Positions 2,391 through 18,256 of a stretch of DNA of 36,270 nt are shown piece after piece (the first letter of the stretch is position 1; each line of letters starts with the position of its first letter). A program made the position numbers and the translations under genes. Source of the DNA: Nitrosomicrobium frigidum (SeqCode) (GTDB lineage Archaea; Thermoproteota; Nitrososphaeria; Nitrososphaerales; Nitrososphaeraceae); contig JAHEZK010000012.1 in NCBI GenBank assembly GCA_023251115.1, positions 1 to 36,270 of the forward strand, given 5' to 3'. The notes beneath the pieces are model-generated. The model saw only the letters and a program-made list of their open reading frames with translations, did not search any database and had not been told where the DNA came from.

Positions 2391-3044
2391 TTAGCTAGTT
2401 GTGTCTATTCGCAATGATTGTAAAATTTGCTTGATAGTGGGTAAATATGTATCAAATTTAGAACTTTCGACGCTATATTGGAGAACATAAATCTTTTTGC
2501 CCAATGCTATCCAGGAGTGCATTATCTCAAAAGAAACAGGATTTCCGACATTTGGTAATGTTGAAAAAACAACTTGATAACCGGGATGGCCAGCCAGAGT
2601 GGTAGAGTCAGAGCTTAAGATTTTTACTTGATTTGTTTGATTAAGGGAGGAAAGTGTCATATTAGTAAAGTCCTTGAGAGATACAGTTTGTTGGTAGTTC
2701 ATTACAGTTATAGTTAATCTAGGTGGAATTGGATCGGAGAGATTTTGTAGCGGACCATAAAATGCTGCTACCTGAGTATACTCTGGTAGACCGCTATTGG
2801 AGAAAGTCCAGTTTGAAGGAAACAACATAGATATTCCATGTTGTGAGTTTCGGTAAGCAATCTGGTTTGTCGATGATCCGTTAGTAACGTTTGATTCTAG
2901 TTCAAAATCATAACTAATCTTATTTGCATTTGATTCTGGGCTTTCTATTGCAACTACAAGATTTGATGAAATTATTATTTGAAATAAGAGTGCAATACTA
3001 ATTAATCCACAAATTGTCAATAATCTGTTGGTAAATAAATTCAT
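2391..3044 (-). CDS. PsbP-like secreted lipid- or membrane-anchored protein
   Basis: 217 residues: a hydrophobic N-terminal segment (about residues 8-31) directs export, followed by a low-complexity Asn/Ser linker and a domain beginning YRNSQHGISMLFPSNW. The pattern GI-(S/K)-(M/I)-x-(F/Y)-P-x-(N/D)-W, a central AGHPGYQVVFS and a final tail with YLPTIKQILQSL matches the PsbP/Mog1-type domain found in many copies in Nitrososphaeria. The biochemical role of these archaeal copies is not known. A paralogue with the same order of motifs is at 17642-18256. Monocistronic, with over 100 bases on both sides. Confidence 0.8.
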   Translation of the reverse strand: MNLFTNRLLTICGLISIALLFQIIISSNLVVAIESPESNANKISYDFELESNVTNGSSTNQIAYRNSQHGISMLFPSNWTFSNSGLPEYTQVAAFYGPLQNLSDPIPPRLTITVMNYQQTVSLKDFTNMTLSSLNQTNQVKILSSDSTTLAGHPGYQVVFSTLPNVGNPVSFEIMHSWIALGKKIYVLQYSVESSKFDTYLPTIKQILQSLRIDTTS

Positions 3045-8261: not shown

Positions 8262-8408
8262 TCAGTGACCACCACAGCCACAACCATGTTCTTCTCCGTG
8301 ATGATGAGCATTAGAATTTTCAGAACATGTAGGACAAAGTGGACTATTATTTTCAGACATAAATGTAATCCCGCAGGAACTACACTTTAACTTTTGAACG
8401 CCTTCCAT
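8262..8408 (-). CDS. 48-residue Cys/His-rich zinc-ribbon microprotein
   Basis: An ATG at 8408 opens a 48-codon frame beginning MEGVQKLKCSSCGITFMS. It has CSSC and CPTC 13 residues apart, a complete zinc ribbon, then a His/Cys-rich tail (AHHHGEEHGCGCGGH) that is a plausible second metal site for zinc, nickel or copper. The tail resembles those of metal chaperones. The position between an unknown gene and the cupredoxin-cyclase gene, which it faces divergently, invites a metal-related link, but this is inference. Confidence 0.75.
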   Translation of the reverse strand: MEGVQKLKCSSCGITFMSENNSPLCPTCSENSNAHHHGEEHGCGCGGH

Positions 8409-8559
8409 TATTTGTTAAGCACTAGAACCATAATTAATGTCTTTCTTGGTTAACAATTTTCAGATTCGCATAACTTATCTATTATACAAAGTGAAACTGA
8501 AGCTAAAACAAGGTATGAAGTACGTAAGGTTATATTCCCTCATAATTATTTAGGATTGA

Positions 8560-9615
8560 TTGAAACAATTTGTGGTTATTCCTAGATTCAAAGAGAATAC
8601 TACTGAAATAATGTATTTTGAACCAAGGATTGTCAAGATAGTCAAGAGCGATTCCATAACTTGGATTAATCGGGATACAAAAGTACATAACTTAACTTCG
8701 GGGGATGCAAACTCCTCATTGCAAAGTCCCTTTTTTCAGACTGGCAGTATGTTGCCAGGAGAATCAACTACTGTTAAGATTGATAGTAATCAGCAGAGCA
8801 TACCATACTATTGTTCTATACATCCTTCTGAAAGAGGCGTCATAGCAATATTTCCCATACCCGAGGATCAGATGACAGAACAGGACAAATCAAAATTCTT
8901 AGATGACATAAACTTGTTCATATCTGACAACGCAAATCAAAAAATATTAACTCGCCTTCAGAGACAGCTAGATCCTGCAATTATTGAGTATCTAAGCGAT
9001 CCTTATGCAACACTGATCCAGAATAGAGTTATGACCATTGTTTTTTGGGACATTACTAACTTTTCAAAATTAACAGAGATCTTTAGAGACCATCCAGAGT
9101 TGATAGCCGTTTTTCTCAATGAATACTTGGGTGTGGCTGTGCCTATAATACACGAATACGGTGGAATTATAGATAAATTCATTGGAGATGGCATACTTGC
9201 TTATTTTGGATTCAAAGAACAAGGTGACGATGGCTCAATTGGAGCTTCTAATGCGATTCTTGCTGCCCTAAAGCTGAAGCAGGCATTCCAGATTTTTAAG
9301 CGAAATTGGCTGGATATATGGAAGACAGTTACTAATTCTGATATAAGAATAGAAATAAAATGCGGTATTAACACAGGCTCGGTGTTAGTTGGGCTCATGG
9401 GAAGCCAAGAAAGGGATCAGTTTACTGTAATAGGAACACATGTGAACTTGGCAAGCAGGTTGGAAGGAATAGCTGAATCTGACCAAATAGTTATTTCTCA
9501 ATATACAAAAGAAAAAATCCTAGAAAAATTCAACTTAGAAACTATCAAGATAAAAGATAAAATAAAGGCATTTGAAGATATTGAGAAATATTACACAGTT
9601 CTAGCTCAGAAGTAG
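8560..9615 (+). CDS. Cupredoxin-class III adenylate cyclase fusion
   Basis: 351 residues from TTG. Residues 5-100 form a plastocyanin-like domain: H43 (KVHNLTSGD), C85 and H88 (YYCSIHPSERG) fit the type 1 copper ligands; where related archaeal cupredoxins have an axial Met (CxxHPxM) this has Glu91, with M64 a possible alternative. A linker with RLQRQLDPAIIEYLSDP resembles the cyclase-transducing segment. Residues 155-345 are a class III nucleotidyl cyclase: metal Asp164 (VFWDITNFS) and Asp210 (IDKFIGDG), substrate Lys206, Thr293 in place of the usual Asp (IGTHVN), and Asn296/Arg300 for transition-state binding. The Thr is the hallmark of class IIIb, several of which respond to bicarbonate. 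No signal peptide or membrane segment is seen, so both domains are probably cytosolic. Likely product cAMP. Confidence 0.88.
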   Translation: MKQFVVIPRFKENTTEIMYFEPRIVKIVKSDSITWINRDTKVHNLTSGDANSSLQSPFFQTGSMLPGESTTVKIDSNQQSIPYYCSIHPSERGVIAIFPIPEDQMTEQDKSKFLDDINLFISDNANQKILTRLQRQLDPAIIEYLSDPYATLIQNRVMTIVFWDITNFSKLTEIFRDHPELIAVFLNEYLGVAVPIIHEYGGIIDKFIGDGILAYFGFKEQGDDGSIGASNAILAALKLKQAFQIFKRNWLDIWKTVTNSDIRIEIKCGINTGSVLVGLMGSQERDQFTVIGTHVNLASRLEGIAESDQIVISQYTKEKILEKFNLETIKIKDKIKAFEDIEKYYTVLAQK

Positions 9616-15356: not shown

Positions 15357-17510
15357 GTGATTTTGTCTAGAGAGGATGAACTGGTTCAAAGCGGATTAAT
15401 CTTAACAGACGACACGGTAATTGATCCAATCCTTGATTTTAATTTATACTCTAATGCCATTGTCAATATTATAAAAAACTCTCATCCAAAATTTAGTATC
15501 GGAGTATTTGGTGATTGGGGAACTGGAAAGACAACTTTAATTAATTCTGTTGATAAAGCCCTTCAAACTGACAGAGACCTAGTCAAAATAAGGCTCGAAG
15601 CATCACGGTACAAAAGAGAAATGTTTCCGCTGATTTCATTATTAAAAAGCATAGCTTATGCGTTACCTGCCGAGAAAGAATTCGAAAATTTAAAGCAGAA
15701 AATAGAAACAAGTGCAATAAATTTTCTGAAGAGAACTCCGGATATTCTTACATCTATTATATCAAAGTACGCGTCAGAAGAGGATGAAATTTCCCACGAA
15801 ATGATAAAAACATTCAAGAAAGAGCTAAACTCGAAGATTCAATTAATTGCAGAATTAGACAGGGATACAATCTATTTCGATGGTTTTAAGGAAATCAAGA
15901 AGGAGATAAAGAATCTGCGAGTAGATAATCCTGCTTTTAGGATTGTTATTTTTGTTGACGATTTGGACAAATGTTCTCCAGGGAAAGCTTTTGAAATTTT
16001 AGAGATGATAAGAGTATTTCATGATATTGAGGGTTTTATTTACGTAATTGGAATAAGCCATGATATGATAGTCAAGTTAAGCAAAGTTGGAAATAGCGAA
16101 TCTAGCATTGATGGAGAACGTTACATTAAGAAGTTGATCCAGGTACCAATAACTTTACCTAAATGGAGTAACCAAGACATCGTCAGACTAGTAAAGGATC
16201 TCATAAAAAAAGGTATGATTCATGATAAATTCAAAGATGTTGTAGACAAGAATATAGAATTAATTTCAGTTGCAATAGACAATAATCCAAGAGAAATTAA
16301 AAGATTCTTGAACAACTTTTTTGTGGCTTGTGAGATTTTTTCAGGTAAGAAAAATTTTGAAGCAAAGGAATTGATTTTTCCAGGTAAGAAAAATTTTGAA
16401 GCAAAGGAATTACTAGTAGCACAAGCAGTGCATTTACGATGGAATAAGTTTTATAATATATTAGTAAAATCTGATGAATCTTTCTTTAGAGGACTAGATA
16501 AATATCTCAAGATGGATGACGATACTCGTCTTAAAAGTTTGGACTTGTACGAAGAAAAAAAAGATGAAATTGATACGAAAGTATGGAAAGTGTTGCGCGA
16601 TTTTAAAACAGATTCGGATTTGTGGGATTTTTTGATAAAAAATTCAGATACTTTAAGAAACGTACGCGATTGGAGCATATATAGTCGTGCAATAGAAGTT
16701 GCTATTGAACCTACTGGCATCCCTGGAAAAACTGTAAACTATGAAGCAGTAAAGTTACTGCAAAGTGGAAAGATTAATGAATTCAATGACAAAAGAGCGA
16801 TAGAATTTAAGATTTTATCAATTAGAGAAGCGGATCTAAGGGATGCGGATCTAAGGGATGCGGATCTAAGGGATGCGGATCTAAGGGATGCGGATCTAAG
16901 GGATGCGGATCTAAGGGATGCGGATCTAAGGGATGCGGAACTAATGGGTGCGAATTTGAGTGGAGCGGATCTTGATGGAGCGGATCTAATGGGTGCGAAT
17001 TTGAGCGGAGCGGATCTAATGGGTGCGAATTTGAGCGGAGCCAGACTGGTAGGGACTAATCTTGGTGGTGCCGATTTGGTGGGAGCTCGTCTTTGGGGGG
17101 CTAACCTAATAAGCACTCGTCTTTGGGGGGCTAACTTGAGAGATGCGCATCTTGTGGGTGCCAAATTAATGGGAGCTAATCTTGGTGGTGCCAGATTGGT
17201 AGGAGCTAATCTTGGTGGTGCCAGATTGGTAGGAGTCGACCTTGGCGGTGCAGATCTTAAGCATACGGAGCTAACAAACTCAATAATAATAAATCCTCAC
17301 TATGAATCCTTAACCGTTAATTCCAGTACTGAGTTTAACAATGCAATAATAGATGATTCACAATTCATTGATTATATAACGCAGCATACAAGAAATGTTC
17401 CTCAAAAGATAAAGGATAAGAAGAAACTGAGAAGAGAATTAGCCAAAAAAGGTGTTAGTGAAGAAAATATTGAAGATCTGTTGAGCATTTCAAAGCTTCC
17501 CGAAGAATGA
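15357..17510 (+). CDS. Soluble KAP-family P-loop NTPase with pentapeptide repeats
   Basis: 717 residues. N-terminal KAP NTPase: Walker A GDWGTGKT (residues 52-59), Walker B RIVIFVDDLDKC (195-206) and NPREIKRFLNNF, a likely sensor-2 region. Most KAP proteins carry membrane helices between Walker A and B; here that region (100-190) is charged helix, so the protein should be cytosolic. After a helical middle (about 320-480) come about 29 pentapeptide units (A-(D/N)-L-x-x, residues 492-636), a right-handed beta-helix that in other proteins mimics DNA or binds partners, then a charged helical tail. The first seven units are identical in DNA. Two 13-residue copies (GKKNFEAKEL core) sit near residue 330. 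KAP proteins include the phage-exclusion protein PifA; a defence role here is inference. It has no close neighbours on its strand. Confidence 0.87.
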   Translation: MILSREDELVQSGLILTDDTVIDPILDFNLYSNAIVNIIKNSHPKFSIGVFGDWGTGKTTLINSVDKALQTDRDLVKIRLEASRYKREMFPLISLLKSIAYALPAEKEFENLKQKIETSAINFLKRTPDILTSIISKYASEEDEISHEMIKTFKKELNSKIQLIAELDRDTIYFDGFKEIKKEIKNLRVDNPAFRIVIFVDDLDKCSPGKAFEILEMIRVFHDIEGFIYVIGISHDMIVKLSKVGNSESSIDGERYIKKLIQVPITLPKWSNQDIVRLVKDLIKKGMIHDKFKDVVDKNIELISVAIDNNPREIKRFLNNFFVACEIFSGKKNFEAKELIFPGKKNFEAKELLVAQAVHLRWNKFYNILVKSDESFFRGLDKYLKMDDDTRLKSLDLYEEKKDEIDTKVWKVLRDFKTDSDLWDFLIKNSDTLRNVRDWSIYSRAIEVAIEPTGIPGKTVNYEAVKLLQSGKINEFNDKRAIEFKILSIREADLRDADLRDADLRDADLRDADLRDADLRDADLRDAELMGANLSGADLDGADLMGANLSGADLMGANLSGARLVGTNLGGADLVGARLWGANLISTRLWGANLRDAHLVGAKLMGANLGGARLVGANLGGARLVGVDLGGADLKHTELTNSIIINPHYESLTVNSSTEFNNAIIDDSQFIDYITQHTRNVPQKIKDKKKLRRELAKKGVSEENIEDLLSISKLPEE
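16334..16411 (+). repeat. 39-base tandem duplication inside the KAP gene
   Basis: Bases 16334-16372 and 16373-16411 are identical except one T/C difference at the eighth base. The unit is 13 codons, so the frame is kept, and it duplicates IFSGKKNFEAKEL as IFPGKKNFEAKEL. The near-identity points to a recent event. Confidence 0.9.
16830..16934 (+). repeat. Seven identical 15-base tandem repeats
   Basis: The unit GCGGATCTAAGGGAT occurs seven times in a row without a mismatch and encodes Ala-Asp-Leu-Arg-Asp each time; an eighth, diverged unit follows (GCGGAACTAATGGGT). The rest of the pentapeptide region is much more varied. Every unit is 15 bases, so gain or loss keeps the frame and changes protein length by five residues. 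Confidence 0.95.
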
Positions 17511-17641: not shown

Positions 17642-18256
17642 TTATTTCTTGTATGTGTAAAATGAATTTAGCATTTTATCGATAGTGGGTAGGTAATTTG
17701 AGTACCTCTGATTATCTGATTTGTAAGTCATTAAAAATGCTTTATTGTCTTCCTTAAACCAGATCTGCATAGCCTTTTTCATACTTTGCGTATTATCAGT
17801 GGCTGTAAAAATAACCATATGGGAAGGATGTCCTAGAAATATAGTTTCCATTGATTCCAGAATTTGAATGTCTGGGTATAGATTCTTTAGTGTATTTAGT
17901 TGGTTCTGCGTTATTGAAGCAAGTGTCTTATTCGATTCAACTTCTATAACCATAATCCCAAGGCCTGCCGGATTTGTATCTGAATTACCTTCTCTTGGAG
18001 CCAGAAATGTGACTGATTTGTCCAAGTGTTGGGCCCTTTCCCAATTAGGAGGATATTTTATGCTAAATCCAGTTATAAGATCATCATATGTCAAGAATTC
18101 TGAATCCAAACCAATAGTAATTATCGGATTCTCATGGAATGAACCAAAGGCAAGATTGTGTTCCAGGTAATGTACTATCAGAAAAATTGAAAAAATAGTA
18201 AGGACTGATAATGCAATTGATATTTTGGTATGATTTATCTCATTGAATAAGACCAT
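17642..18256 (-). CDS. PsbP-like membrane-anchored protein (second copy)
   Basis: 204 residues with an N-terminal membrane segment (about residues 14-32, SIALSVLTIFSIFLIVHYL) and a PsbP/Mog1-type exported domain: GFSIKYPPNWERAQ, a middle LGHPSHMVIFTATD and a tail YLPTIDKMLNSF. The same motif order occurs in the 2391-3044 gene, so the two are paralogues, though diverged. It is the expected length. Its 3' end converges on the KAP gene. Confidence 0.82.
   Translation of the reverse strand: MVLFNEINHTKISIALSVLTIFSIFLIVHYLEHNLAFGSFHENPIITIGLDSEFLTYDDLITGFSIKYPPNWERAQHLDKSVTFLAPREGNSDTNPAGLGIMVIEVESNKTLASITQNQLNTLKNLYPDIQILESMETIFLGHPSHMVIFTATDNTQSMKKAMQIWFKEDNKAFLMTYKSDNQRYSNYLPTIDKMLNSFYTYKK

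Follow-up and report, generated by a model that had tools for sequence, protein, structure and literature searches.

The 351-amino-acid product of a single gene from Nitrosomicrobium frigidum (Nitrososphaeraceae), an ammonia-oxidising soil archaeon, is probably a soluble cytosolic adenylate cyclase whose N-terminal cupredoxin domain serves as a metal or redox sensor, with copper as the most likely metal; judging from the sequence, we put the probability of this reading at roughly 0.6. The gene lies in the window analysed here, a stretch of 36,270 nucleotides corresponding to positions 1-36,270 of the forward strand of contig JAHEZK010000012.1 (assembly GCA_023251115.1). In the mechanism that we propose, the predicted cupredoxin site (His43, Cys85, His88, and Glu91) would bind a metal ion, most likely copper. 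Any shift in the metal occupancy or redox state of the domain would be relayed through a linker with an invariant Asp-Pro pair to the interface between the subunits of the class III cyclase dimer, and would thereby alter cAMP synthesis. The identity of the metal, cAMP as the product, dimerisation, the direction of regulation, and the signal are the elements of this mechanism that we infer. Direct support comes from the domain architecture, the conservation of ligands and catalytic residues, the recurrence of fusions and gene pairs, purifying selection, and the lack of an export signal. The detection of amoA in the same genome agrees with the proposal of the first-pass annotation that the host is an ammonia oxidiser, and implies that it depends on copper enzymes.

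The open reading frame had initially been read as a cupredoxin followed by a class III cyclase, and both domains were recovered above the curated Pfam cut-offs, the former as Copper-bind (PF00127, E=1.1e-6, 29.4 bits versus a cut-off of 21.2) and the latter as Guanylate_cyc (PF00211, aa 158-328, E=1.6e-16, 60.9 bits versus 21.9). These matches are far above chance, and the same architecture is found over the full length in relatives from other genera that are 37-41% identical, some of the distant fusions scoring under the PF00127 cut-off. The positions originally assigned to H43, C85, H88, D164, K206, D210, and R300 were all correct in the translation. The residue set of a class III cyclase is complete, with D164 and D210 as the metal-binding aspartates, K206 as the substrate lysine, and N296 and R300 as the transition-state residues; in an alignment of 12 fusions, D164, K206, N296, and R300 are invariant and D210 is nearly so. 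In addition, K206 and T289, which bear on the use of ATP versus GTP, agree with the adenylate cyclase 1wc0 in the alignment. The pair D138-P139 is also invariant in the 12 fusions, and, from what is generally known of class III cyclases, the linker that contains it is likely a transducer helix. Among solved structures, the nearest cupredoxin was 5fc9 (phmmer 1.7e-6 over aa 5-97; profile 2.8e-10), which we take to be the purple cupredoxin Nmar_1307 of Nitrosopumilus maritimus, and the nearest cyclases were 1wc0 (single sequence, E=4e-25) and 3r5g (profile, 2.3e-33). The first-pass annotation had looked to structure prediction for confirmation of the cupredoxin domain, and on this point AlphaFold neither confirmed nor contradicted it: the pLDDT was 38.7 for residues 1-107 and 32.9 for the whole protein with eight close orthologues, both low because the alignments were shallow. 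The Greek-key beta sandwich predicted for residues 1-107 thus rests on sequence homology.

Table 1. Features of the fused gene in the window and loci of the corresponding gene pairs.
Feature	Position	Strand	Basis or remarks
TATA-box-like element TTATATTC	8530..8537	+	23-30 bases 5' of TTG; kept at the same spacing in 10 aligned sequences
Fused cupredoxin-class III cyclase gene	8560..9615	+	Open reading frame, 351 aa, TTG start; orthologues
Cupredoxin domain	8602..8859	+	aa ~15-100; Pfam match aa 15-91; 5fc9 alignment aa 5-97
Predicted metal ligand His43	8686..8688	+	Invariant in 12 aligned fusions; also in paired cupredoxins
C-terminal ligand loop C85-S-I-H88-P-S-E91	8812..8832	+	Predicted Cys and His ligands; Glu at axial-Met position
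Linker	8860..9024	+	Includes invariant D138-P139 ahead of the cyclase domain
Class III adenylate/guanylate cyclase catalytic domain	9031..9543	+	D164, K206, D210, T289, N296, R300; PF00211; 1wc0 alignment
Paired loci	L046, L047, L050, L091, L093, L095, L096, L097	same strand	Small cupredoxin gene directly upstream of cyclase gene

Several observations indicate that the protein starts at the annotated TTG and stays inside the cell. An in-frame TGA at 8557-8559 stands immediately 5' of the TTG, and this arrangement is kept in nine other sequences from the genus, as is a TTATAT box at constant spacing upstream of the gene (10 aligned sequences in all), so that the start codon chosen in the first-pass annotation proved correct. 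The box is presumably the promoter. A TATA-like box 23-30 bases upstream is expected of a leaderless archaeal transcript, and its distance from the TTG suggests that the gene is transcribed in this way. The highest 19-residue hydropathy within the first 60 amino acids is 0.3, which argues that the protein has no export signal and bears out the earlier claim that it lacks a signal peptide or membrane segment; an N-terminal signal missed by a wrong start was ruled out by the conserved upstream stop and promoter. Furthermore, a class III cyclase requires ATP, a cytosolic substrate, and the cyclase domain therefore also places the fusion protein in the cytosol.

The copper-ligand pattern His...Cys-x-x-His is present in the cupredoxin domain as H43, C85, and H88, and these residues, together with P89, E91, and G93, are invariant across the 12 aligned fusions. 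The loop C85-S-I-H88-P-S-E91-R-G aligns with the C-x-x-H-P-x-M-x-G of other cupredoxins in these genomes, and it shares the spacing C-x2-H-x2-(axial) with amicyanin (e.g. 1aac), in which the residue matching E91 is the axial Met ligand; the spacing thus puts E91 where amicyanin has this Met. The glutamate, which the first-pass annotation overlooked, replaces the axial Met of a classical blue (type 1) copper cupredoxin in every fusion, while the five other clearly matched cupredoxins of the same genome have Met at this position. With its invariant Glu, the site departs from a standard blue-copper site, and it might accommodate copper in an unusual state, or a different metal such as zinc. An axial carboxylate tends to lower the reduction potential, to stabilise Cu(II), and to make a site fitter for Zn(II), and for this reason copper is likely, but not certain, at the predicted site. 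Natural cupredoxins without an axial Met exist (PMC4059628). When a DNA pattern for CxxHPxExG was run on 70 genomes of the family, 20 of the 37 matches lay inside cupredoxin domains, and all 20 were cyclase-derived (19 fusions and one that is cut short after about residue 160). With Met in place of Glu, the pattern gave 757 matches in 69 of the 70 genomes, of which a few are expected to be chance matches outside cupredoxins. Among CxxHPx-type sites of these 70 genomes, the predicted axial Glu is limited to cyclase-linked cupredoxins. Cupredoxins encoded next to a cyclase have a Glu near the axial position, in a region where the alignment is less sure, and they escaped the pattern because the Pro is missing and loop residues are altered or inserted.

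The association of the two domains is not confined to this genome. Within the genus, the orthologues are 81-86% identical and gene order is conserved. With a profile built from the 12 fusions and run against the 70 genomes, full-length fusions were found in four genus-level groups (g1, g2, g4, and g7), the bearers including G183 (g2, two copies), G318, G320, and G082 (g4), and G189 (g7). In addition, G318 and G320 have a longer form of 571-572 aa (L089 1456-3171 and L090 3841-5553), in which about 100 additional residues precede the cupredoxin and about 150 follow the cyclase; no Pfam family matched the additional regions of L089. Adjacent same-strand pairs of a cupredoxin gene followed by a cyclase gene occur at eight loci in groups g1, g2, and g4, where the two genes overlap or stand within tens of bases of each other, and none of the four paired cupredoxins checked has a hydrophobic N-terminal segment. 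Fusions in four groups and eight paired loci mean that this is more than one odd gene, and this recurrence in fused and in adjacent form strongly supports a joint function of the two domains. Many cyclases of the same clade have no cupredoxin, either fused or nearby. Sampling beyond the family (300 genomes from the class and 398 from the phylum, with only the top candidates of each genome scored) turned up no fusion. Coverage outside the phylum came from a genome-contig scan with the fusion, which returned close relatives only, and from a plasmid search, in which every match was to the cyclase only and fell short of 80% of the query, and the cupredoxin part by itself matched nothing.

In the cyclase tree, a single clade (support 100/100) unites the cupredoxin-linked cyclases with their stand-alone relatives and excludes the other cyclases of their hosts. 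Fused forms are scattered through this clade, and the pairs are nested beside a fused form. This fits an ancestral fusion that would have split into pairs in some lineages and lost its cupredoxin in others, the order of events being read from a tree in which several deep branches are weakly supported. The fused and paired cupredoxins likewise form one clade, separate from other cupredoxins (95/82), with a branching broadly like that of the cyclases; the cupredoxin tree includes loci recruited by the Met pattern, and its Met majority is therefore partly by construction. Pairwise distances of the two domains correlate with r=0.96, a value reached in 0 of 5000 permutations and inflated by shared species history. 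Selection within the genus is purifying on both domains, with median dN/dS values of 0.078 (cupredoxin), 0.049 (linker), and 0.063 (cyclase). In one fusion (L024), the second metal Asp is gone, with IGGG in place of IGDG. In addition, genome G263 of the same genus carries a decayed copy of the fusion (L049 3462-4379) with an internal stop and without the His and Cys ligands, and besides this copy retains a cupredoxin-cyclase gene pair (L050). These two losses indicate that the system is dispensable and that its function can be lost.

The gene neighbourhood offered no conserved operon partner, since gene order is kept only within the genus and no neighbour in the window recurs beside distant fusions. 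A small divergent gene adjoining the fusion (8264-8411, minus strand) encodes 48 amino acids, which include two CxxC pairs and end in a His/Cys-rich tail (HHHGEEHGCGCGGH); its product is likely metal-binding, and the gene is found in the same place throughout the genus and was not found beside distant fusions. Elsewhere in the window are a KAP-family P-loop NTPase followed by pentapeptide repeats (15357-17510, plus strand) and two PsbP-like proteins (2391-3044 and 17642-18256, both on the minus strand), here in an archaeal context. Other cyclases of the same genome, encoded on other contigs, include two with an N-terminal KaiC-type ATPase domain (L013 86-1591 and L014 451-1875), and a further one has a C-terminal response-regulator receiver domain (L009 1342-2544). 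A search of this genome, which is 91% complete, for a cNMP-binding domain (PF00027) found none; there is thus no known cAMP receiver, and this counts against the proposed function. The domain is present in some relatives, where its presence does not track the fusion. In one related genome, it is fused to a pyridine nucleotide-disulphide oxidoreductase (L183 1387-3072), with matches in other relatives in frames of similar length, and it is possible that this oxidoreductase is a cAMP effector.

Other readings of the cupredoxin domain have to be weighed against a copper or redox sensor, for which cytosolic copper itself is a difficulty: it is normally chaperone-bound Cu(I), and a cupredoxin cycling between Cu(II) and Cu(I) in the classical way would be unusual there. 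The scarcity of free copper in the cytosol could instead favour zinc or another divalent metal, with a Cys-His-His-Glu set holding Zn(II) and the domain reporting zinc or merely stabilising the dimer, and the Glu that is invariant in all fusions would suit Zn(II) or Co(II) as it does Cu(II). However, the fold family and the other three ligands are of the copper-protein type, the closest relative of solved structure binds copper, and the lineage depends on copper, so that we consider zinc unlikely. The cysteine-metal site might also react with NO or with reactive oxygen from ammonia oxidation and set the cyclase output accordingly. NO comes into consideration because Nmar_1307, to which the nearest solved cupredoxin structure corresponds, has been reported to oxidise NO to nitrite, and NO has an important role in archaeal ammonia oxidation (PMC6790972). 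However, the axial site of Nmar_1307 is described as open in a 2016 paper, as cited by PMC6790972, whereas in the fusion Glu91 probably fills it; reactivity of this kind is not legible from sequence, and an NO or oxidant sensor appears quite unlikely.

It is very unlikely that the cupredoxin binds no metal and serves as a module for protein-protein docking or dimerisation, even though some paired cupredoxins have an altered ligand loop, the G263 relic has lost the loop, and cyclases of the same clade stand alone, because all 12 fusions keep His-Cys-His and Glu at identities as low as about 37%, and selection on the domain is purifying. The stand-alone cyclases and the altered loops nevertheless count against the sensor that we propose. 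An annotation artefact, in which two genes were falsely joined or an export signal was missed, had in its favour the TTG start and a fold left unconfirmed by the AlphaFold models, and is close to refuted: the two domains share one frame in close orthologues and in distant genera too, the upstream stop and TATA box are conserved, and the cyclase needs cytosolic ATP. A cytosolic cyclase with a metal- or redox-sensing cupredoxin, most likely of copper, is therefore the reading that we retain. The further proposal, that an intracellular cupredoxin was re-tuned by replacement of Met with Glu and would report copper or redox state directly to cAMP synthesis as an undescribed class of sensor, is more tentative, and we rate it at a little under even odds.

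The energy metabolism of ammonia-oxidising archaea is based on copper, and how these organisms sense the intracellular copper or redox state is, to our knowledge, largely open. Cupredoxins are known as exported electron carriers and are normally found outside cells. If the proposed function is true, cupredoxins also serve as cytosolic sensors, the Glu-for-Met signature predicts which of them do so, and copper-based energy metabolism is tied to a second messenger in these archaea. The recurrence of fused or adjacent genes in relatives suggests an undescribed metal or redox switch for intracellular cAMP signalling, and a single soluble cyclase with a built-in cupredoxin makes copper or redox sensing directly testable. 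No cyclase with a cupredoxin sensor was found described in the open-access full-text literature (most subscription journals and preprints being outside this scope), in agreement with the first-pass annotation, which knew of none; the fusion would thus be a class III cyclase with an undescribed type of sensor. Class III enzymes account for very few of the predicted archaeal adenylate cyclases (PMC8646023).

Compared with known systems, the fusion combines features that have been seen separately. Its Cys-x2-His-Pro loop is equal in length to that of Nmar_1307 (5fc9), and both lack the axial Met; in contrast, Nmar_1307 is a stand-alone protein with an open axial site and Arg at the aligned position, where the fusion has Glu91, and the fusion carries a cyclase. 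Amicyanin, which has the same loop spacing, differs in being a periplasmic electron carrier with an axial Met and no catalytic domain. Nitrosocyanin, the red copper protein of ammonia-oxidising bacteria, is a naturally occurring cupredoxin that uses a Glu ligand and has a low reduction potential; this Glu is contributed by a different region of the fold, and the protein is not linked to a cyclase. On the catalytic side, the metal Asp residues, the Lys, the threonine of the FTxIG motif (T289 in the fusion), and the N and R motif are shared with 1wc0, the catalytic domain of the CyaC type from Spirulina/Arthrospira, and CyaC bears other sensory domains, whereas the sensor of the fusion would be the cupredoxin. 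The best profile match, 3r5g, is the catalytic domain of Pseudomonas aeruginosa CyaB, a membrane-anchored enzyme, whereas the fusion is predicted to be soluble and carries a cupredoxin.
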